From the NCBI RefSeq assembly GCF_000621805.1, contig NZ_JHXH01000015.1, positions 1 through 53,039 on the forward strand: a stretch of DNA of 53,039 nt. The letters run 5' to 3'. The notes beneath the pieces are model-generated. The model worked only from the letters and a program-made list of their open reading frames with translations, was not told the DNA's origin and made no database searches. The position numbers and the translations under genes were made by a program. This document shows, piece by piece, positions 1,886 to 40,341 of the stretch. Every line of letters begins with the position of its first letter. Within the stretch, counting starts at the first letter, position 1. This stretch comes from Ruminococcus sp. FC2018. GTDB taxonomy: Bacteria; Bacillota; Clostridia; Oscillospirales; Ruminococcaceae.

Positions 1886-2155
1886 TCAGAAACCGTTGTA
1901 AAGGAAATCTGCCCAGTAATACTGGTTCATATATTCACACTCGTAAGCATTTACAGCTCCGGCATCAAGCTCTTTGAAACGGCTGCGCTCAAATCGCAGC
2001 GGCGTGCCGTCTGGTGTTCTCCATTCCGATATGTGAGTGTCCGTCGTCCTTGACCTCGCTTGGTCAAAGCCTACACCATCATCCGCAATGATGATCTCGT
2101 ATGCACTGTCATTTTCACGGGTCGAGATAGTCACCGTGCCGCCGCCTTTAGCCAT
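1886..2155 (-). pseudogene. LytS-type histidine kinase remnant (HATPase part only)
   Basis: The minus strand encodes GGGTVTISTREND and IIIADDGVGFD, the G1-box region of a HATPase domain. It closely matches the intact kinase at 34262-35476 (GGTVTIASRETDD, VSDDGVGFD). Shortly after, the frame breaks: the expected G-M-E-N-T motif appears in another frame (IGMENTRR). Membrane segments and the phospho-accepting His are gone. The upstream side runs directly into the repeat at 2142-2336, so an internal deletion probably fused leader and HATPase. It lies divergent to a decayed GFSRG hydrolase gene. Confidence 0.65.
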
Positions 2156-2336
2156 ATTGAACAAGCCAAAGTCCAAACATTTGTTGAATATGCTGATGCG
2201 AAATAGGTTTATCTTGTTGTTACTTTTGTTGTAGTGTGTGTGATATACTGTAGTCAAAGAAAAGGGAAAAACAAAAAACAAACTTCCCCAAAAAAAAGAA
2301 TCTGTTGTACTTCTGTTGTAGTCGGTGTGCTACACT
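2142..2336. repeat. Dispersed ~190-bp promoter-bearing repeat, copy 1
   Basis: From CCGCCTTTAGCCATATTGAA onward this stretch is nearly identical to 35463-35642, differing by scattered substitutions and small gaps. It spans the divergent region between a kinase (left, minus) and a secreted or peptide gene (right, plus) in both places. It contains two promoter-like units, each with a TGTTGTAG box followed by TGATATACT or TGCTACACT. Confidence 0.85.
2223..2336 (+). promoter_or_regulatory. Tandem extended -10 promoters with TTGTAG boxes
   Basis: Unit 1 has TGTAG at 2230-2234 and an extended -10 TGATATACT ending at 2249. Unit 2 has TGTAC (2306-2310) and TGTAG (2317-2321), 11 bp apart, and an extended -10 TGCTACACT ending at 2336. 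Neither has a good -35 box at 17 bp, which suggests activator-dependent promoters with the TGTTGTA repeats as the site. They point toward the hydrolase pseudogene at 2382. Confidence 0.5.
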
Positions 2337-2381: not shown

Positions 2382-4423
2382 ATGAAAAACCGTAAAAAAT
2401 GCTTCGTTTCACAGCGATGTTAACTGCGCTGGCAATAACTGTTTCCATGCTTACTTCCTGCGGCTCGTCCTCGCAGTCCAAGTCGGATTCGGAAAACGCA
2501 CAAAGCTCCGAGTTAAGGCTGGGCGGCGTAAGAAATGCCGAGGCTCCAAAAGAGATCTACTACGAGTCTGAGAAGGATTATCTCTATTATTCGGATGACT
2601 ATTTCAAAAAACCATCTACAAACTATAATGAGCATCTGTCTTCGTTATCCATAATGATGGCCAATTACTCCATGAACCCAGGCAATCCGAAGAGCCTTGA
2701 TGATACCGACTGGTATAAAAATCAGTCGAGCCGTGTTCGCGGATTCTATGATCTCATCGGATTCAAGTAGGCTGAAGTCAATAAGGATTACGAAAGCAGA
2801 ACAGCGTTTGACACGATCGGCATCATCGCAGCAAATCGAAAGGTCGATGATTATACAGTGATCGCCTGCACCGTCAGATCAGGCGGATACTTCCTTGAGT
2901 GGGAAAACAACGTATTCCTTGGCGACGGAACAAAATCCGACTATATGCACGAAGGCTGGTACAATGCCGCAAATAAGGTGATCGACTTCCTTGGCAGCTA
3001 TATCAAGGAGAAAGGGATCACCGGAAAGATCAAGTTGTGGGTATCCGGTTTCTCCCGTGGCGGCGCAACCATGAACCTGACCGCAGGTCTTGTGGATAAC
3101 AAGATCGCTAAGGGCAGCGACAGCGTATTCCCCAACGTTACTCTCGAGCATAATGACCTGTATGCCTATACGTTTGAAGCTCCGCAGGGTGCAAATGTCA
3201 ATTCCAAAACAGTAGCAGCCCCGACGGATGCAATTTACAACAATATTTTCAACATTATCAATCCAAACGATCTTGTCACCAAGGTTGCAATGGCAGATTA
3301 CGGATTCAGAAGATTCGGAATCGATAAGTACATCACCACACAGTTCTTTGATCCGGATAATTTCGCCTCGAACCGTGAGTCCGTCAAAGAGATCTATGAG
3401 GCAAAGTATCCCGATTATAAATGGATATCCGATGATTTCACAATGTATACGATCAATACGGCAGATCTTATAAGTCTGACGAATATGGGCGTTTTGGTAC
3501 GTGATATCGTTAATGTCGTAGATTCTATTGAAGAAGGAAAGCTCCCTGACATTATCCATGTCAACGACAAGAAAGTGCATTACGATGCCAATACGGCAGT
3601 GACATTGCTGATCGACCGTGCAATGGGGAAGATCGGAAACCGCAGTGATTACTGTAACAAGATCCAGCCTTTTGCCAGAAAACTGATGAAGGTGCTGTTC
3701 ACCGATGTGAAAGATCCGAATACCCCATCTATCGGAGAGATCGGTATAAAATTAGTGTTCCAGGCGATAGCTTACGGCGTATTTGGAGATTCTTCCTTCA
3801 TTTCTGATTTTTCCAAGATCACCGGCGCTACCGACGAGGAAATAAAAAGTATGTTAGAGATTCTTTGGTATACGTTTGAAGAATATCCGAATGAAATGAT
3901 CTCAGTGGGCATCTGCATCAAAAATGTTTTTGAAAACCACAGCACCAGCATAAATATGGCACATATCCAGGCACAGGACTCTTATTATGTAGACCATTAC
4001 AGAAAAAACAACGACAAGGTCCATCTGGTGCCTCTGCGCAACAATGCAGATTTCTTCCGTATCGAACTGGTCGATTTAAATAAGGCTTGGCTCAAGAATA
4101 CTGATAAAGATCAGGTAGTGATCGATATTGCAGGACATGACACAGGAGCGAGTGATATCAATACCTGCAAAGACGGATATATAGCCGGGTATTATAACTA
4201 TGCAACTTATGAACGTCTTGAACTGTTCATGCCCGGTCGGTACAACTATTATATCGATGCTTACGAGCACTCTTTGGATCTTTCTCATCATGTAAAAGGG
4301 CTGATATGGCATTATTTCTCAAATGGAGAAATGTATCGTAAGTCAAAAGTATTTGTTGATGAAGACGTTACTATGGACGGAGGCCCGTATAAAACCAATA
4401 TCGAAAAAGTAGTAAACGAATAA
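2382..4423 (+). pseudogene. Secreted GFSRG-type alpha/beta-hydrolase lipoprotein, disrupted
   Basis: The gene resembles the intact hydrolase at 32620-34407: both have a lipase-like box (LWVSGFSRGGATMN here), then Y-A-Y-T-x-E-A-P-Q-G and a late NHST motif. The ATG at 2382 has a TGGAGG ribosome site, but one A is missing from an A-run near 2398, so the lipoprotein signal (MLTALAITVSMLTSC) lies in the next frame. An in-frame TAG at 2768-2770 splits the rest, after which the frame is open to 4423. Two lesions make it a likely pseudogene, although the long conserved remainder suggests recent decay. The predicted product was a surface lipoprotein with a Ser hydrolase fold; its substrate is unknown. 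Confidence 0.75.
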
Positions 4424-4988: not shown

Positions 4989-5048
4989 ATGGAATTCTTC
5001 ATTAATATCTGGGAAGGCTTTCAAAAATTCTTCAGAGGCAAGTGCTGA
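4989..5048 (+). CDS. 19-residue amphipathic peptide
   Basis: The complete product is MEFFINIWEGFQKFFRGKC. An AAAGGAG ribosome site lies 9 bases before the ATG, behind a strong promoter, and a terminator closes the unit about 100 bases later. The sequence is rich in Phe/Ile/Trp on one helical face with Lys/Arg near the C-terminus, and it ends in Cys. I do not recognise the family. Options are a signalling peptide, a membrane-active peptide of the modulin or type I toxin kind, or a leader peptide of a regulatory RNA. No export or processing gene is adjacent. The gene is supported by expression signals rather than homology. Confidence 0.6.
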   Translation: MEFFINIWEGFQKFFRGKC

Positions 5049-32619: not shown

Positions 32620-34407
32620 TCACTTCTGAGTTGCTGCTGTGTACCAGTTATCATAAGTCCTGAGCCAGCAAACAGACTGCAGTGTCGAGTGGTTCTTGTA
32701 GATATCATTTATAGCGAATGCAAAGGTGAGGATATCATCTATGCTGTCAAAGCCTTTGATTCCGTGAAAAGCGACGTTCAGAAGATCGTCGACTGCTTTG
32801 TCTACACCGCCCTCGTAGTTGTTGAATATATCATGGATTTTCTGGTTATCGTTCAGTGATTCTTTGAGGGCAGTGATCAGATCATTAACGTTAGGAATAG
32901 GAGGATTCCATACAGGCCAAGCAAATGGATTATACCAATTATCTATGATCTGGTTCCAGAAATTTTCAATATAATCCGTGAACATATTTTTAGCTACACC
33001 GATCAATGTATCTTTAAGGTCAATAGCGTTTATGATATTGTCGATGTGTACGCCCTGTGTATTAAGGAATGTCATCATGCGTCTTGCTGCAGATTGGATA
33101 CCGCTGTCAACATATTCCTCTCTGGAGATGTCAGTACCCAGGTTCATTACAAAATGATTGATAACGTCCTTCGGAGGGGTTTTGCCGTCATTTACTATAT
33201 CCAGCGACCAATCCCATTCCCAGATATACCACGAAGTCTTGATCGAAAGATCCAGCTTTTTCTTATCCAGTGATGTTACAGGATAATAATCCTTCGCTCT
33301 GTCGCCTGTGATCTTATCGATCTGCTGTTTTAACAGATCCAGTCTTTCATCTGAAACGCCTACTGTACCGTCGTTGTCAGCAACATTGTTGACGAAAACG
33401 CTCTTCTGGAGATGGTCGCTGTCCCAATTCTCGTTGTATATGAAGTGGTCAACGCCGTATCTCTTGAATCCCCAGTCTGTAGGTGCAACGAAAGGAACGG
33501 GATCGTCTTTGCATACAACATTGTGGATGCAGGTGTAGTCACGGTCGCTTCTTTCTTCTGATGCCATACCGCCCTGAGGTGCTTCGATAGTGTATGCGTA
33601 AACCTTGTCGTTCTTATCCTGATACTGGTCGATAAGTCTCTTTGCTGTGAGGTTTGCTGTTGCACCGCCTCTTGAGAAGCCTGACAGCCAGAATACTACG
33701 TTTCCGTTTGCTGCATCTTCGGTCATATTGTTATCCTCAAGATACTTGTTTACCTCTGATGTTACCTGATTTGCAGCATTAGCAAATCCTTCTGCCTCGC
33801 CCTGCTTTCCGAGAGAAACGTTTGAAGCCCATTCCTTCTCATAGTTTGCACTTCTTACGGTTATGGAAACGACCTTTTTTGTGCCGTCCTTAGTTTTAAC
33901 AGTCTTGCTGCCGATAGCACAAGCAACAGAATCCGGTGTAGGCTCCTGTGTGTAAGCCGGGCTTGCATACAGATCTTCAAAACCCATATGGGAAAGAAGA
34001 TCCTTTATTGTCTTAGGTCCCTGTGAATAATCGCTGCCTTTTTCTACTGTTGTTGATGAATATGCCAGATTGCATGACATTGTAGCGATATGGGGATCAT
34101 ACTGCTTAGGCTCTGTCTCAAAGAAGCCATCTGAATATTTGAAATCGACCTTGAAGCCGTCTTTTTCATACACGCCGGTCATTATGTCATGACCATTGTA
34201 CTGATCTGCTTTGATCCTTGTTTCAGCAGCAGTCGTATTCATAGTTGTAACAGAATTTACATCAACTGCATCTGCTATGATGAATGATGATGATGATGTA
34301 AGGCCTGCTGCTGTCGTTGCCATCATAACGCCTGCTATCAGTACGGTGATTGACTTCTTTACCTTGCTCATGGATGATACCTTGTTTGTTGCCTTTGTTG
34401 TTTTCAT
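32620..34407 (-). CDS. Secreted GFSRG-type alpha/beta-hydrolase
   Basis: The 595-residue protein has an N-terminal export signal (SITVLIAGVMMATTAAGLTS) and a lipase-like nucleophile motif VVFWLSGFSRGGATANLTAK at about residues 230-250, then KVYAYTIEAPQGGM and VPFVAPTDWGFKRYG. The C-terminal NHSTLQSVCWLRTY may hold the catalytic His. Relatives are lipase-like hydrolases of unknown substrate in gut Clostridia. It resembles the decayed gene at 2382-4423. The first 146 bp overlap the end of the histidine kinase gene, and an AAGGAGG site precedes its ATG, so both are probably one transcript. Confidence 0.75.
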   Translation of the reverse strand: MKTTKATNKVSSMSKVKKSITVLIAGVMMATTAAGLTSSSSFIIADAVDVNSVTTMNTTAAETRIKADQYNGHDIMTGVYEKDGFKVDFKYSDGFFETEPKQYDPHIATMSCNLAYSSTTVEKGSDYSQGPKTIKDLLSHMGFEDLYASPAYTQEPTPDSVACAIGSKTVKTKDGTKKVVSITVRSANYEKEWASNVSLGKQGEAEGFANAANQVTSEVNKYLEDNNMTEDAANGNVVFWLSGFSRGGATANLTAKRLIDQYQDKNDKVYAYTIEAPQGGMASEERSDRDYTCIHNVVCKDDPVPFVAPTDWGFKRYGVDHFIYNENWDSDHLQKSVFVNNVADNDGTVGVSDERLDLLKQQIDKITGDRAKDYYPVTSLDKKKLDLSIKTSWYIWEWDWSLDIVNDGKTPPKDVINHFVMNLGTDISREEYVDSGIQSAARRMMTFLNTQGVHIDNIINAIDLKDTLIGVAKNMFTDYIENFWNQIIDNWYNPFAWPVWNPPIPNVNDLITALKESLNDNQKIHDIFNNYEGGVDKAVDDLLNVAFHGIKGFDSIDDILTFAFAINDIYKNHSTLQSVCWLRTYDNWYTAATQK

Positions 34408-35476
34408 TTTTTGTTTCCTCCTTAACTTTGGGAATGATAATTTTTGCAGTAGTTCCCTCGCCGACGGTGCTTGTTATCACGACCTCGGCATTGCACATAT
34501 CTTTAAGTCTGCGCTTGGTGTTCTCCATTCCGACATGTGAACGCCCGTCATCCTTGACTTCATTCACGTCAAATCCCACACCGTCATCAGATACGATGAC
34601 TTCAAAGCTGTCATCTGTTTCACGGCTGGCGATAGTCACCGTTCCGCCGTCATCCTTCATCCCGACGCCGTGCTTGACAGCGTTCTCAACAAGCGGCTGA
34701 ACGGACAGAAGCGGTATCTCGAAATTATCCTCCTGAATATCGTACTCAATGCTGAGCTTTTTGCCGAAACGCAGCTTTTCGATGTACAGATATTTTTCAA
34801 GATGTTCAAGCTCCTTTTTAAAAGGTACGGGTGCTGTCTGTTTGAGAGAGTCCATATTGCCCCGCAGATAGTCTGAGAACTTTATCGTAGCCTCATAGGC
34901 GGTCTCAGGTTTTATCTTGCACAGCATCGCAATAGACGAAAGAGCGTTGTACATAAAGTGCGGTCTGATCTGGCTGACCATTACCTGCACCTTTGCCTCG
35001 TAAAGCTCTTTCTGCATCTGCTGATAGTGTATCGATTCAAGATATTTCCTGCACAGGTCGAATACGGTGCGCACTATCTGTGCGATCATCGTCACCGCAA
35101 GACCGTATGTGAAAAAGTGCAGGCTCGAAAAGCTGATGAACTGATTGAATATATCGAGAATCAGTGCCATTATCATGGGTGTCCACATTATCATCGAAAG
35201 CAGTGCCTGGCGTGAGCTTCTGATCTCGCGGGAAAGCAGAACGATGAACACGACAGCAGTTATTCCCATAAAGATATTGACATATGCGCCCGTCACGACA
35301 AGATCGCTGACTGCGAAAATGTGCAGCGCCGCACAGACGATGACCGATATCGTTACGCATATCGTCAGCACAGCACTGACGGCTCTTGATTTGGCTTTGG
35401 AATAGTATAGCAAAAAGAAAAGGTTTTCTTTACTATTTTCAATGTTCCGCTTTGACACACCACCGCCTTTAGCCAT
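34262..35476 (-). CDS. LytS-type sensor histidine kinase
   Basis: From 35476 (MAKGGGVSKRN) the product is about 404 residues: four hydrophobic segments, a coiled coil, a His_kinase domain with the phospho-acceptor His (VSQIRPHFMYNALSSIAMLC), and a HATPase domain (PLVENAVKHGVGMKDDGGTV, VSDDGVGFD, GMENTKRRL, GEGTTAKIIIP). The start is uncertain: the first residues come from the duplicated repeat, and GTG 35458 is an alternative. The membrane part looks shorter than in seven-helix relatives and may be truncated. LytS-type kinases usually partner a LytTR response regulator, but none is in this window. The C-terminus runs 146 bp into the hydrolase gene. Confidence 0.75.
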   Translation of the reverse strand: MAKGGGVSKRNIENSKENLFFLLYYSKAKSRAVSAVLTICVTISVIVCAALHIFAVSDLVVTGAYVNIFMGITAVVFIVLLSREIRSSRQALLSMIMWTPMIMALILDIFNQFISFSSLHFFTYGLAVTMIAQIVRTVFDLCRKYLESIHYQQMQKELYEAKVQVMVSQIRPHFMYNALSSIAMLCKIKPETAYEATIKFSDYLRGNMDSLKQTAPVPFKKELEHLEKYLYIEKLRFGKKLSIEYDIQEDNFEIPLLSVQPLVENAVKHGVGMKDDGGTVTIASRETDDSFEVIVSDDGVGFDVNEVKDDGRSHVGMENTKRRLKDMCNAEVVITSTVGEGTTAKIIIPKVKEETKNENNKGNKQGIIHEQGKEVNHRTDSRRYDGNDSSRPYIIIIIHHSRCS

Positions 35477-35642
35477 ATTGAACAAGCCAAAGTCCAAACA
35501 TTTGCTGAATATGCTGATGCAAAAAAGGTTTATCTTGTTGTACTTTTGTTGTAGTGTGTGTGATATACTGTAGTCAAAGAAAAGGGAAAAACAAAAAACA
35601 ACTTCCCCAAAAAAAGATCTGTTGTAGTCGGTATGATATACT
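35463..35642. repeat. Dispersed promoter-bearing repeat, copy 2
   Basis: Nearly identical to 2142-2336, from CCGCCTTTAGCC through TGTTGTAGTGTGTGTGATAT to the second TGATATACT. Here it separates the LytS kinase (minus) from the peptide genes (plus). Confidence 0.85.
35540..35642 (+). promoter_or_regulatory. Tandem extended -10 promoters of the peptide genes
   Basis: Two units are seen: TGTAG at 35550-35554 with TGATATACT ending at 35569, and TGTAG at 35623-35627 with TGATATACT ending at 35642. They are 73 bp apart. No good -35 box exists, so an activator binding the TTGTAG boxes is likely. The leader is A-rich with one CCCC run. Confidence 0.55.
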
Positions 35643-35720
35643 AAAAACAACAAAAGGACAAACAGAGAATTACAAACACAAAACAAAGTAAAATCGAAAC
35701 ACTGAGAAAGGAGAATTAAT

Positions 35721-35810
35721 ATGAACTTTACAACAGGACCGCTCACAACAGGACCTCTCGGAACCGGACCGCTCGATGAAACAGGGCCTCTCACAGTATT
35801 CTTCCTGTAA
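35721..35810 (+). CDS. TGPL-repeat peptide (29 residues)
   Basis: A clear AAAGGAG site lies upstream of the ATG. The product starts MNF, has four TGPL units (residues 5-8, 10-13, 15-18, 21-24) spaced by 1-2 residues, and ends TVFFL. There is no Cys and no signal peptide. Repeated short units in a tiny protein suggest a multi-core precursor or a binding motif array; I recognise no family. No radical SAM, ATP-grasp, cyclase, peptidase or ABC exporter gene is adjacent. The neighbours are a second repeat peptide gene downstream and a divergent histidine kinase. Confidence 0.65.
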   Translation: MNFTTGPLTTGPLGTGPLDETGPLTVFFL

Positions 35811-35854
35811 TGAACGAACAAGAATAACAAATCTCAAAGAAAGGAGGAAAAAAT

Positions 35855-35929
35855 ATGATGGACTTTGGTTATCCTTACTTCGATCATACCGCAGTTGGTT
35901 ATCCATACTTCGGAATCAGAGTAAAGTAA
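35855..35929 (+). CDS. GYPYF-repeat peptide (24 residues)
   Basis: AAGGAGG lies 7 bases before the ATG at 35855; a second ATG follows directly. The product begins MMDF, has GYPYF at residues 5-9 and 15-19 separated by DHTAV, and ends GIRVK. It lies 44 bp after the TGPL peptide stop and shares its promoters. Two different repeat peptides in tandem argue that repetition itself matters, for example as two cores cut from one precursor. The family is not recognised. Confidence 0.6.
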   Translation: MMDFGYPYFDHTAVGYPYFGIRVK

Positions 35930-36012
35930 TACATTGATCGAACGCACAAACAGCTTACAATACAACAAATCTAATACCGAAATGAACTAACAAGAATAAC
36001 AAAAACAGCAAT

Positions 36013-36045
36013 AACCGCAGGACCGAGAGTCTTGCGGTTTACTTG
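36013..36045 (+). terminator. Weak terminator after the peptide genes
   Basis: AACCGCAGGAC pairs with GTCTTGCGGTT, followed by TACTT. Confidence 0.5.
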
Positions 36046-36239
36046 CGTGTTATGAAACTATCTGACCGAAAATCGTACCCGACCGATAACATACCATCCA
36101 TGAAGCAGCTGACCACGAGCTGCAATACATCTGTTTCTATAAAATCCAAATTTTCATCGGGCAAAGAAACAGACATACGCAAGACAGCGAACATCTGTAA
36201 AATATCCTGCACTTTATTGATTTCAATACTGCTACAAAT
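36039..36239 (-). pseudogene. Possible protein remnant
   Basis: A 66-codon minus-strand frame has protein-like composition (VQDILQMFAVLRMSVSLPDE, then DVLQLVVSCFMDGM) but no start codon at its upper end, where an in-frame TGA lies. I do not recognise it. From 36240 to 36514 only the kinase promoter is apparent (TATGATATACT ending at 36434). Confidence 0.2.
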
Positions 36240-36514: not shown

Positions 36515-39055
36515 ATGAAAAAAGCATGGATAATCATAATAAACGTTCTGATAATGGTCGCGATCATTGCATTTGTTTCTTTTTATATTTCAGTGAATAA
36601 CAAAAGTACACTTCAAAGGCAGACCGAGCATTTTGAAAACACGACCGTCACAATGGAGCGTGTCACCGAAAACTATCTCAAAGGCGAACAGCGTATCTGT
36701 GACGTATGGGCTCATTATATCAACAGCCGGGAAATGACCATTGAAGAAGCGGCAGGCTTTATCCGTATTTCTCATGTGCTGCCGAATGCATCAGCTCATC
36801 TGATATATCTTGACAGCAGAAAAGGCATATCGACACGTCCTCATCTGGGTACAGCCGAGGATTACGAAGTATCTTATGATAAAACGGATTTTCTCACCGA
36901 TACATCGTGGATATCAGATATCGGCACATCCGTCAATATCTCCCGTGCATATACTAACCCGATGAACGGTGAACAGTCGCTTGCTTTCTGCAATAAGATA
37001 CAGCTGTATGACTCCGACTACACAGCTGCAAAAGAGGCTGTTCTGCTGCGTGTACTGCCAATATCAGAGCTGGAGCAAAAATGGATAATCCCGCAGGAGG
37101 GCTTTAAAAACGCCGAGCTCACGCTGATAGATTCGGAAGGCAACTATATAATAAAAAGCAAATCATTCAAGAATTCAAATTTCTTTGAGTTTTACAAATC
37201 ATATAACTCATCAAATCCGACTCTTCTTGAAAATCTTCACGATGATATAACATCCTGTACGGGTTCCGTTACGATACTTAACTCCAGAAAAGAAGAAATG
37301 CTGCTTGCTTATACTCCTGTCCTTGAAACATCTGGCTGGATACTGCTTAGCCTTATCCCCAAGTCGGATCTGATCGTAAACACGGAAAACTGGCTTCTGA
37401 TCGGAGTGATCTCCGCAGGACTGCTTGTGTTGTTCATTATAGATCTGATTTTCATTCAGAGCATCAATAAAAAGCTGCGTATCGCCGCAACGGAGGCAGA
37501 TTCTGCCAACAAAGCAAAAACCGATTTTCTTTCCACCATGTCCCACGATATCCGCACCCCGATGAATGCGATAATCGGACTGACAACGATCGCACAAAAA
37601 AATCCCGGCGATGTCGAGGCGACAAAAGAAAGCCTTCGCAAGATAGGTCTTGCAGGCAACCATCTGCTGACACTTATAAACGACATCCTGGACATCTCTA
37701 AGGTCGAAAGCGGAAAATTGAGTTTATCACCTGTAACATTTTCCATAGTTGAAACGGTCGAAAACCTTGTCAATCTGTCTCAGCCTATGGTAAAAGAGAA
37801 GAATATAGATTTCAATTTTCGTGTTGACCGAATGGAAAAGGAATACCTTTATGCCGATCAGCTCAGGCTGAATCAGATATATATAAATATACTTTCAAAT
37901 GCAATCAAGTATACTGAGCCGGGCGGAAGCGTCAGTGTGGATATGCAGGAGGAGGAAAGCTCTGTCGAAGGGTGTGTGAGACTGATCTATAAGGTATCCG
38001 ACACCGGAATAGGTATGAGCCCTGAATTTATGGAAAAGATGTTTCAGCCGTTTTCACGTCAGACAGACAGCCGCATCAACAGCATACAAGGAACGGGGCT
38101 CGGTCTTGCGATCACCAAAAAGATGGTCGATCTTATGAACGGAACGATAGACTGTCAGAGCGAGCAGAACAAGGGCACGACATTTACTGTCGTTATAGAT
38201 ATTCCCGTATCTGACAGACAAAGAGACGATATACGGTTTGATCCGATTGACATTCTGGTCGTTGATGATGATGATGTGCTAATTCAGACTGCTGAGGATA
38301 CGCTGAGTTCTCTGGGCGCTGCAGTAGAATGTGCAAACAGCGGTGCACAGGCGATAGAAATGATGCTGAACCGCCGTCAGCAGGAAAAGAATTACGATAT
38401 TGTGATAATCGACTGGAAAATGCCTGATATGAACGGTATCGAAACTGTCAGCAAGATCAGATCTGATATAGATGAGAAGATACCGATACTGCTGATCTCC
38501 GCATATGATACATCGGAGATAGAAGAAGATGCCAGAAAAGCAGGGGCAAACGGGTTTATCAGCAAGCCCCTCTTCCGTTCTGCTCTTTATGATAAGATCA
38601 GTCAGCTTCTCGGAAAAGAAGTAAGCTCCGTCGAGCCGGAGGACGATCATTCAGATCTTGAAGGAATAAATATCCTCGTAGCAGAGGATAACGATATAAA
38701 CTGGGAGATCCTACAGGCAACTCTCAGAATGTTCGGCATGACCTCGGAGCGTGCAGAAAACGGCCGCATCTGCGTGGATATGATGAAAAACGCAGAGGAA
38801 GGGCGTTACACTCTGATCTTTATGGACGTGCAGATGCCTGAAATGAACGGTCTGGACGCTACAAGAACGATCAGAAAAATGGAAGATCCGTGGGCAGCAT
38901 CAATACCGATCATAGCGATGACAGCCGATGCTTTTTCCGAAAACATCACCGAGTGTATGAATGCAGGCATGGACGGACATATCGCCAAGCCTTTCGATAT
39001 TAAACTCGTAATCAAAGAAATCCGCAAGATAAATGAAAGGAGATCAAAAAAATGA
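36515..39055 (+). CDS. Hybrid sensor histidine kinase with two receiver domains
   Basis: The 846-residue protein begins at 36515 behind AAGGTGG. One membrane segment (residues 4-26), a Cache-like extracellular sensor (about 30-295) and a second membrane segment (about 300-320) lead to HisKA (STMSHDIRTPMNAIIGL), HATPase (NILSNAIKYTEPGGSV, DTGIGM, GTGLGLAITKKMVDLM) and two receivers (VVDDDD with IIDWKMPDMNG; VAEDND with FMDVQMPEMNG). No output DNA-binding domain is present, so phosphate probably passes to another protein. Its stop overlaps the start of a solute-binding lipoprotein gene by 4 bp. Confidence 0.93.
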   Translation: MKKAWIIIINVLIMVAIIAFVSFYISVNNKSTLQRQTEHFENTTVTMERVTENYLKGEQRICDVWAHYINSREMTIEEAAGFIRISHVLPNASAHLIYLDSRKGISTRPHLGTAEDYEVSYDKTDFLTDTSWISDIGTSVNISRAYTNPMNGEQSLAFCNKIQLYDSDYTAAKEAVLLRVLPISELEQKWIIPQEGFKNAELTLIDSEGNYIIKSKSFKNSNFFEFYKSYNSSNPTLLENLHDDITSCTGSVTILNSRKEEMLLAYTPVLETSGWILLSLIPKSDLIVNTENWLLIGVISAGLLVLFIIDLIFIQSINKKLRIAATEADSANKAKTDFLSTMSHDIRTPMNAIIGLTTIAQKNPGDVEATKESLRKIGLAGNHLLTLINDILDISKVESGKLSLSPVTFSIVETVENLVNLSQPMVKEKNIDFNFRVDRMEKEYLYADQLRLNQIYINILSNAIKYTEPGGSVSVDMQEEESSVEGCVRLIYKVSDTGIGMSPEFMEKMFQPFSRQTDSRINSIQGTGLGLAITKKMVDLMNGTIDCQSEQNKGTTFTVVIDIPVSDRQRDDIRFDPIDILVVDDDDVLIQTAEDTLSSLGAAVECANSGAQAIEMMLNRRQQEKNYDIVIIDWKMPDMNGIETVSKIRSDIDEKIPILLISAYDTSEIEEDARKAGANGFISKPLFRSALYDKISQLLGKEVSSVEPEDDHSDLEGINILVAEDNDINWEILQATLRMFGMTSERAENGRICVDMMKNAEEGRYTLIFMDVQMPEMNGLDATRTIRKMEDPWAASIPIIAMTADAFSENITECMNAGMDGHIAKPFDIKLVIKEIRKINERRSKK

Positions 39056-40341
39056 AAAAGATTCTAAGTATCATTCTGTCGGCGTTCATGCTGCTTGGTT
39101 TAGCTTCCTGCGGTTCCGAAGAGCACAAGGAAAGCAAAAAAGGGTTTGAACCAAAGCTGGATACGGATAGTGCCTGTAAAATAAACGTTGCAGGCAGTTA
39201 CAGCAATTTTGAGGCTCTTGAAGCGGAATTTGAACGCTTCAACGAATATTATCCGAACGTTGAGATGTGCTACACCAAAATCGACGACTACAACAATTCT
39301 ATCGCCACAGTTCTCAGCGGCAACGATGCACCCAACATTTTCTTTTCGTTCAGCTGGATGATGGGCAACCCGGCCTATGATAAGGTTTTTGATCACATGG
39401 AAAACCTTGCCGACAACTCTCTTGGGCTGGATCTTGACTGTATCCGCCCCGGACTTCTCAGCCGTGACTCACAGGGAAAAGTGCTGATGGTGCCTGTATT
39501 CTCCACCTCTTACGGAATGCTTATCAATAACGATCTGTTTGAAAAAGAGGGGCTGAAGGTTCCTCAGACCATTCAGGAGCTTTTTGATGTCTGTGCCTCG
39601 TTCAGGGGAAAAGGATATGAAAGCCCGATGATGGGATACAGTGCAGATTCATCAGGCTGTCTGATGAATACGGTCGCTTATCCGATATTTGCTGCAAAGC
39701 TGGCAGAAAATCCCGAAATGGTCGCAAAAGCCAACCAATGCGATCCCGAAGCAGGAAAATATATGCGTCCTGCCCTTGAGACACTCTCTCAGCTGATAGA
39801 TAAAAAATGTATTGATCTGAAAAAGTGCGCTGAGATAAGCGATAATTATGGCGCTGTCATCATGCGTTTCTTTAAAGGCGACGTTCCTATGATGATCTGT
39901 ACAGGCGATACGGTCTCAGGAACAAGCAAGCGTGAAAGTCAGTCGGCAGAATTTACAGCGCACCCCTTCACCTATACATTTGCACCCATACCGACAACAG
40001 ACAAGGGAGGATATTTTCTTGACAGCCCTTCCGTTCAGTTTTCAGTCAACAATTCCTGCAAAGACAAGGATATGACCAATGAATTTATGCGTTTTCTCAT
40101 TTCAAAACAGGAGCTCAGCCAGATGGCGTCAGTAAAACGTCTGATAACGCCGTCGGATGATCTGTCATTAGATAAAGTATATGCTCCTGTCGGCAAAACC
40201 CCGCCGGAACTTGTTATCTCCCCTACCTCACTTGGTATCAAGGATAAGCTCGCCGTTCAGATACGTCTTGCCTCTTATCTGGTCGCAACCGGAGATCTTA
40301 CCATTGATCAGGCCGTTGCAAAGTACGGGACACTTGAATAA
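39052..40341 (+). CDS. Extracellular solute-binding lipoprotein (sugar ABC type)
   Basis: The 429-residue product has a lipoprotein signal (ILSAFMLLGLASC) and the fold landmarks of ABC sugar-binding proteins: EAEFERFNEYYPNVEM, IATVLSGNDAPNIFFSFSWM, PVFSTSYGMLINNDLFEKEG and the hinge-region QTIQELFDVCASFRGKGYES. Its ATG overlaps the kinase stop (ATGA), so translation is coupled. No permease or ATPase genes follow. It may therefore deliver a ligand signal to the kinase's extracellular domain instead of feeding a transporter. Confidence 0.88.
   Translation: MKKILSIILSAFMLLGLASCGSEEHKESKKGFEPKLDTDSACKINVAGSYSNFEALEAEFERFNEYYPNVEMCYTKIDDYNNSIATVLSGNDAPNIFFSFSWMMGNPAYDKVFDHMENLADNSLGLDLDCIRPGLLSRDSQGKVLMVPVFSTSYGMLINNDLFEKEGLKVPQTIQELFDVCASFRGKGYESPMMGYSADSSGCLMNTVAYPIFAAKLAENPEMVAKANQCDPEAGKYMRPALETLSQLIDKKCIDLKKCAEISDNYGAVIMRFFKGDVPMMICTGDTVSGTSKRESQSAEFTAHPFTYTFAPIPTTDKGGYFLDSPSVQFSVNNSCKDKDMTNEFMRFLISKQELSQMASVKRLITPSDDLSLDKVYAPVGKTPPELVISPTSLGIKDKLAVQIRLASYLVATGDLTIDQAVAKYGTLE

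Follow-up and report, generated by a model that had tools for sequence, protein, structure and literature searches.

In the staphylococcal agr system, two-component control extends to leaderless tiny peptides, the phenol-soluble modulins, and to secreted enzymes. The SARP regulators of Streptomyces, as PMC10972967 describes them, bind heptameric direct repeats that have 4-15-nt spacers and overlap the -35 element, classically at 11 bp. Here we describe a locus with likenesses to both, found in a 53,039-nucleotide stretch of DNA from Ruminococcus sp. FC2018 (contig NZ_JHXH01000015.1, positions 1 to 53,039; this whole stretch is hereafter the window, and its genome G000). Two adjacent tiny open reading frames (ORFs) lie divergently from the gene for a LytS-type histidine kinase, which overlaps the gene for a secreted hydrolase. 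Judged from their sequence context, the two ORFs are probably genuine micropeptide genes, joined in a small operon that a two-component regulon has among its outputs, and not the source of a ligand for the neighboring kinase. As in agr, a two-component system would have leaderless tiny peptides and secreted enzymes among its outputs, but the regulator is OmpR-like, not LytTR-type, and no AgrB was found using a weak control. As with the SARP regulators, the predicted sites lie at the -35 position and consist of heptamers directly repeated with an 11-bp period (4-nt spacer), and the regulator has a putative OmpR-like winged helix; here, however, a response regulator encoded next to a LytS-type kinase of Clostridia would carry that domain, the predicted targets are micropeptides and secreted proteins rather than antibiotic clusters, and there is no Pfam match to a DNA-binding domain. 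With their His_kinase and HATPase_c domains, the kinases resemble other LytS-type enzymes, and 7TMR-DISM matches the full-length relatives weakly, below cut-off; unlike the others, their partner is OmpR/SARP-like rather than LytTR-like, and the window copy is truncated.

The first of the two genes (35721 to 35810, forward strand) encodes the 29-amino acid peptide MNFTTGPLTTGPLGTGPLDETGPLTVFFL, with four TGPL units, and the second (35855 to 35929, forward strand) encodes the 24-amino acid peptide MMDFGYPYFDHTAVGYPYFGIRVK, with two GYPYF units. Sequences and positions are as claimed in an earlier note made from the DNA letters, and each ORF follows a strong ribosome-binding site (AGAAAGGAG and AAAGAAAGGAGG, respectively). 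A search for TGPL repeats in 29 genomes of the genus produced matches in G000 and in three relatives, G028, G027, and G009. Because the G009 match (locus L094) falls where only large ORFs were called, it was rejected as a micropeptide, and we count homologs, which exist for both genes and vary in repeat number, in three of the 29 genomes. In G028, five consecutive ORFs, of which the first starts with TTG, follow the order TGPL-YPYF-TGPL-YPYF-TGPL; the homolog of the second gene, MGFDYPYFFYPYLEVRVK, occurs there twice. G027, whose assembly is 70% complete, has the ORFs MFTTGPLTTGPLGSCDPALNVLDYPYFMIRV and MFTTGPLCTGPLVETGPLGWWD, and a single ORF there fuses TGPL and YPYF parts and ends in DYPYF...IRV. 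A wider draw of 396 genomes of the family, which held few members of the window's genus and neither G027 nor G028, gave TGPL matches only in G000 and, by chance, in the relative G241; the latter was rejected, since only large ORFs were called at that place and the match is antisense to the end of a 238-amino acid ORF. Among the best 80 of 262 related kinase loci, which were examined in their fetched flanks for ORFs starting with ATG, TGPL/YPYF ORFs were seen only at L099, which is G028 itself. Carriage of the peptides by viruses was considered and rejected, one MNFTTGPL pattern having no matches in IMG/VR. Five peptide strings did not occur in the literature searched, and no paper describing such a system was found there.

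Across 18 TGPL units from six ORFs, there are 14 departures from the majority base, all in the 72 third-position cells, and none in the 144 cells of the first and second codon positions; certain units duplicate one another, so the departures do not amount to 14 independent events. Since the base differences are all silent, the codon pattern indicates that the TGPL peptides are under selection as peptides. Outside the repeats, the TGPL ORFs of the window and G028 differ by approximately 3.5 silent and 4.5 other changes in 19 codons, which suggests weaker constraint on the termini than on the repeats. The reading frames, for which scrambling or loss of conservation had been raised as a concern, are conserved in the G028 and G027 homologs. 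Tandem short cores in varying copy number are also typical of multi-core precursors of ribosomally synthesized and post-translationally modified peptides (RiPPs), in which case the modification enzymes would be encoded elsewhere. Such an identity is very improbable: there is no leader region, the repeats begin almost at the N-terminus of each ORF, and none of the 26 window proteins tested with Pfam is a modification enzyme or an exporter, in agreement with the earlier note, which had seen no such gene nearby.

The link between these genes and a regulon comes from their promoter. The type-A promoter of the peptide operon (35536 to 35569, forward strand) has the heptamer TGTTGTA at 35536-35542 and 35547-35553, with an 11-bp period, and a -10 element, TATACT, at 35564-35569. 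A second promoter-like site (35620 to 35642, forward strand) has a single TGTTGTA and TATACT; its counterpart in G028 has two heptamers. The alignment of shared promoters consists of two heptamers with an 11-bp period directly upstream of a TGATATACT-like -10 element. A general scan for this box found 64 sites in 31 loci, versus 2 in the reversed sequence used as control, with 10 of the 31 loci lacking a site. The window and loci picked by kinase homology account for 46 of the sites; the other 18 are in loci picked partly by similarity of promoter DNA, and 5 of these duplicate L050. In an independent scan of 77 loci from genome scans, picked by kinase only and with at most one mismatch allowed between heptamers, 66 sites were found versus 2 in the reversed sequence. 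In 61 of the 64 cases, an ORF of at least 15 codons that has a ribosome-binding site begins no more than 260 nt behind the box. A strict type-A search (TGTTGTA-N4-TGTTGTA, up to 2 mismatches) of G000, G028, and five other genomes found two sites in G000, both in the window, and eight in G028, with none in the reversed control and none in the five other genomes, G027 included. These strict boxes stand at genes for the peptides, the hydrolase, a leucine-rich-repeat protein, and a 27-amino acid micropeptide. Because the peptide operon carries the promoter box of the regulon, we read the peptides as outputs of that regulon.

The regulator is present in 76 of the 80 related loci. Uncultured Ruminococcus and other Clostridia make up most of the related records, and many of these are rumen-derived. 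PDB matches of its structural model are to BaeR (E 6e-8), PhoP, PrrA, RegX3, and KdpE, which are of the OmpR/PhoB class, and the better-scored core of the model runs strand-strand-helix-helix-helix-strand-strand. The predicted structure thus agrees with a receiver joined to an OmpR/PhoB-class winged helix; a LytTR-type regulator was considered and rejected, the model being OmpR-like. When recognition helix and box were compared in the 53 loci having both, a set in which related regulators are not independent, the helix tracked the box type. TGCAAAG boxes occur with an LQNLLQTY helix in 18 of 19 loci, all eight TGTTGT loci have a QQSY helix, and all 11 loci with a QSY or RSY helix have a TGTT-type box. 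Likewise, TGTAAAG or TGTCAAG boxes go with a QQNYVQQLIHAM helix (5/5), and the TGTAAG box pairs of the window's genus go with a QQNYMQQLT helix (5/5). Two loci fit poorly, namely L112 (TGTAAGA/TGTCAGA) and L119 (a TGTT-type box with no SY in the helix).

We propose that, in the relatives, a LytS-type sensor kinase with an extracellular domain, membrane helices, and a kinase part acts with the adjacent OmpR/SARP-like winged-helix response regulator. The regulator would bind the two heptamers, one helical turn apart and just upstream of the -10 element, and the bound form would switch on secreted proteins (in type A, the Lipase_3 hydrolase) and micropeptide operons. Paralogous systems would operate in parallel, each with its own box sequence matched to its own recognition helix. 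In the window genome, the type-A system is cut down to a kinase without its sensor half, a regulator remnant, and a hydrolase joined behind the kinase, with the peptide operon and its box retained. The peptides may be effectors of the regulon whose site of action is the membrane or lies outside it.

Several observations weigh against this proposal. The box pattern was devised after the shared-promoter alignment had been seen. Pfam recognizes only the receiver domain (Response_reg) in the regulator, and the model is of modest quality (mean predicted local distance difference test score [pLDDT] 66.7, predicted TM-score [pTM] 0.48), and an uncertain domain arrangement keeps its TM-scores near 0.3; the SARP label is drawn from the box and a sequence pattern. 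L111 is the exception among the TGCAAAG loci, and several loci in the helix/box comparison have one weak site only. G027 has TGPL ORFs and the type-A regulator but no strict box was found in it, although a contig end precedes the promoter of its TGPL array. The type-A regulator matches at 100% in G028 and at 98% over residues 48-260 in G027, is a remnant in G000, and was not found in the other four genomes searched (best 69-78%); with the regulator missing from the window genome, the operon could be silent here. Finally, a stable hairpin 3' of the peptide ORFs (36004 to 36052, forward strand; fold z -5.7) lacks the T-run of a canonical terminator, and a terminator scan found none 3' of these ORFs.

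The kinase gene (34262 to 35476, reverse strand, with an ATG as start; a TTG start would give the longest open frame, to 35830) encodes His_kinase and HATPase_c domains, and its 3' end enters the gene for a secreted Lipase_3-type hydrolase with a GFSRG motif (32620 to 34407, reverse strand; Lipase_3 at 39.1 bits, cut-off 22), so that the two ORFs overlap by 146 nt. The arrangement is as the earlier note had described it, a LytS-type kinase gene divergent from the peptide genes and overlapping that for a secreted GFSRG hydrolase. The hydrolase is full length compared with a 64% identical homolog in L039. The kinase is N-terminally truncated: the two closest kinases in G028 have 642 and 636 amino acids (with the weak 7TMR-DISM match), and alignment begins at residue 289 of the former, leaving approximately 290 N-terminal residues absent. 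Thus, the extracellular domain and first membrane helices are missing from the window kinase. Gene maps of relatives place the end of the kinase near the overlap point, and a response regulator usually comes next; the overlap is therefore probably not ancestral and likely arose by deletion. The G028 kinase that adjoins the peptides is also without a neighboring regulator, and an intact pair is present at L038. The window locus has no intact kinase-regulator pair, its regulator being a 31-residue remnant elsewhere in the window, identical to the C-terminus of the type-A regulator (1889 to 1981, reverse strand). Beside this remnant are kinase remnants (2007-2155), within a second, decayed module copy at 1.9-4.4 kb. 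This copy has a type-A promoter (2303 to 2336, forward strand; one mismatch to the strict pattern), whose wider promoter region matches that of the peptide operon at 94% identity over 127 bases, and a Lipase_3-like ORF (2858 to 4423, forward strand) that is 24% identical to the first hydrolase in the aligned part. The truncated kinase, the missing regulator, the decayed copy, and the reduction of the second promoter to one heptamer are what one might see if the locus were decaying in this species, with the peptide ORFs as intact leftovers of a lost system. We consider this quite improbable, given that the four TGPL units of the window differ from one another at silent sites only and that the hydrolase is full length.

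The earlier note took the combination of kinase and peptide genes as an arrangement for peptide signaling. That the peptides are real, built of repeats, conserved, and linked to the LytS-type kinase family stands; that they are the signal of the adjacent kinase, or that the hydrolase processes them, found no support. This kinase is without its sensor half, and the peptide ORFs beside it have remained intact. Signaling would have the TGPL and GYPYF peptides exported, cut short, and sensed by a LytS-type kinase, thereby autoinducing their own operon. The peptides do adjoin a kinase gene in both G000 and G028, the operon has the system's box, as an autoinducer gene would, and the sensors are hypervariable. 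Thus, the kinases of L032 (G000:C5) and L051 (G022:C41), which have similar neighborhoods, are 98% identical in the kinase part and 41% in the sensor, a difference that looks like a sensor-domain swap. However, the peptides show no obvious export signal, Peptidase_C39 exporters were found in none of the three TGPL genomes (controls were positive in 8 of 14; one of the three genomes is the 70% complete assembly), AgrB was likewise found in none of the three (the control being weak, one of 14 and below cut-off), and the peptides of sister systems stay similar where sensors diverge. Because autoinducer genes are often also outputs of their own system, and because the sensors are hypervariable, we retain signaling as an explanation, albeit an unlikely one. 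Similarly doubtful is the broader proposal that these are leaderless multi-core micropeptides of a new class, built of xTGPL and xYPYF pentapeptide units and commanded by a SARP-like two-component system, which would be cut to pentapeptides and leave the cell as signals or effectors, with AgrB, C39 exporters, and RiPP enzymes playing no part.

The reading of the peptides as regulon outputs has a parallel in the sister systems. The TGTAAG-type system includes up to eight hydrophobic ORFs of 20-28 amino acids, arrayed beside a kinase-regulator pair (L040), and the TGPL/YPYF operon looks like a counterpart of such micropeptide arrays. The pooled ratio of nonsynonymous to synonymous differences (pN/pS) in the sister micropeptides is approximately 0.31-0.32, from three families of 4-5 sequences. 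Their similarity persists even where the linked sensors share only 46-52% identity, and among sister systems the sensors diverge faster than the kinase parts. By eye, the hydrophobic sister peptides resemble phenol-soluble modulins, whereas the TGPL/YPYF peptides are not amphipathic helices. Hydrophobic sister micropeptides were not seen beside the kinases of the rumen relatives, where some boxes precede small membrane proteins of 46-47 amino acids. A conserved protein of this size (MKNTLKSIRNGI...) lies downstream of TGCAAAG boxes at L105, L111, L132, and L150, the last ending at a contig edge.

Besides micropeptides, the predicted box targets comprise secreted proteins of approximately 170 and 525-600 amino acids, the hydrolase, and the leucine-rich-repeat protein; a PI-PLC-X-like cluster takes in two related targets of 396 amino acids, of which the one scanned scores just above cut-off. 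For the 525-600-amino acid family, there was no Pfam family above cut-off and no significant fold match of the model (best Vip3Aa, E 0.2). Among 10 box-controlled proteins of rumen relatives, six have no Pfam family at E 0.001, two have Chlam_PMP repeats (one of them also a beta-helix), and the remaining two have below-cut-off matches only, one to a toxin profile. The idea that all box-controlled secreted proteins are lipases was rejected, as only the type-A protein, its relatives at L039, L194, and (partial) L037, and the decayed window copy match. Several box-controlled secreted proteins, including those of L106, L111, and L121, seem to begin with an additional Thr/Asn-rich stretch. A ribosome-binding site lies within the codons of this N-terminal extension, and translation may therefore really start at a second ATG. 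At L088 (G028:C212, 2395-3731), near box-controlled micropeptides, a 63-amino acid ORF with SACGAADPAP repeats lies beside a protein that by eye is radical-SAM-like, possibly forming a modified-peptide cluster.

Elsewhere in the window, ACGAAAGGAG precedes the ORF of a candidate micropeptide, MEFFINIWEGFQKFFRGKC (4989-5048, forward strand), on the downstream side of the decayed module copy; the peptide looks amphipathic by eye, and no heptamer box was seen ahead of the ORF. At 36515-40341 (forward strand), the gene for a hybrid histidine kinase with two receivers overlaps one for an extracellular solute-binding protein. PADLOC gave a single match, which was weak and unconvincing.

Such a scheme would tie tiny, easily missed genes to a family of two-component regulons that run in parallel in Clostridia of the gut and rumen, with a promoter box, peptides, and secreted proteins particular to each. 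Through the box, it may become possible to locate and turn on micropeptide genes that have so far been beyond functional testing, and the natural set of regulator-helix/DNA-box pairs would permit a study of specificity.

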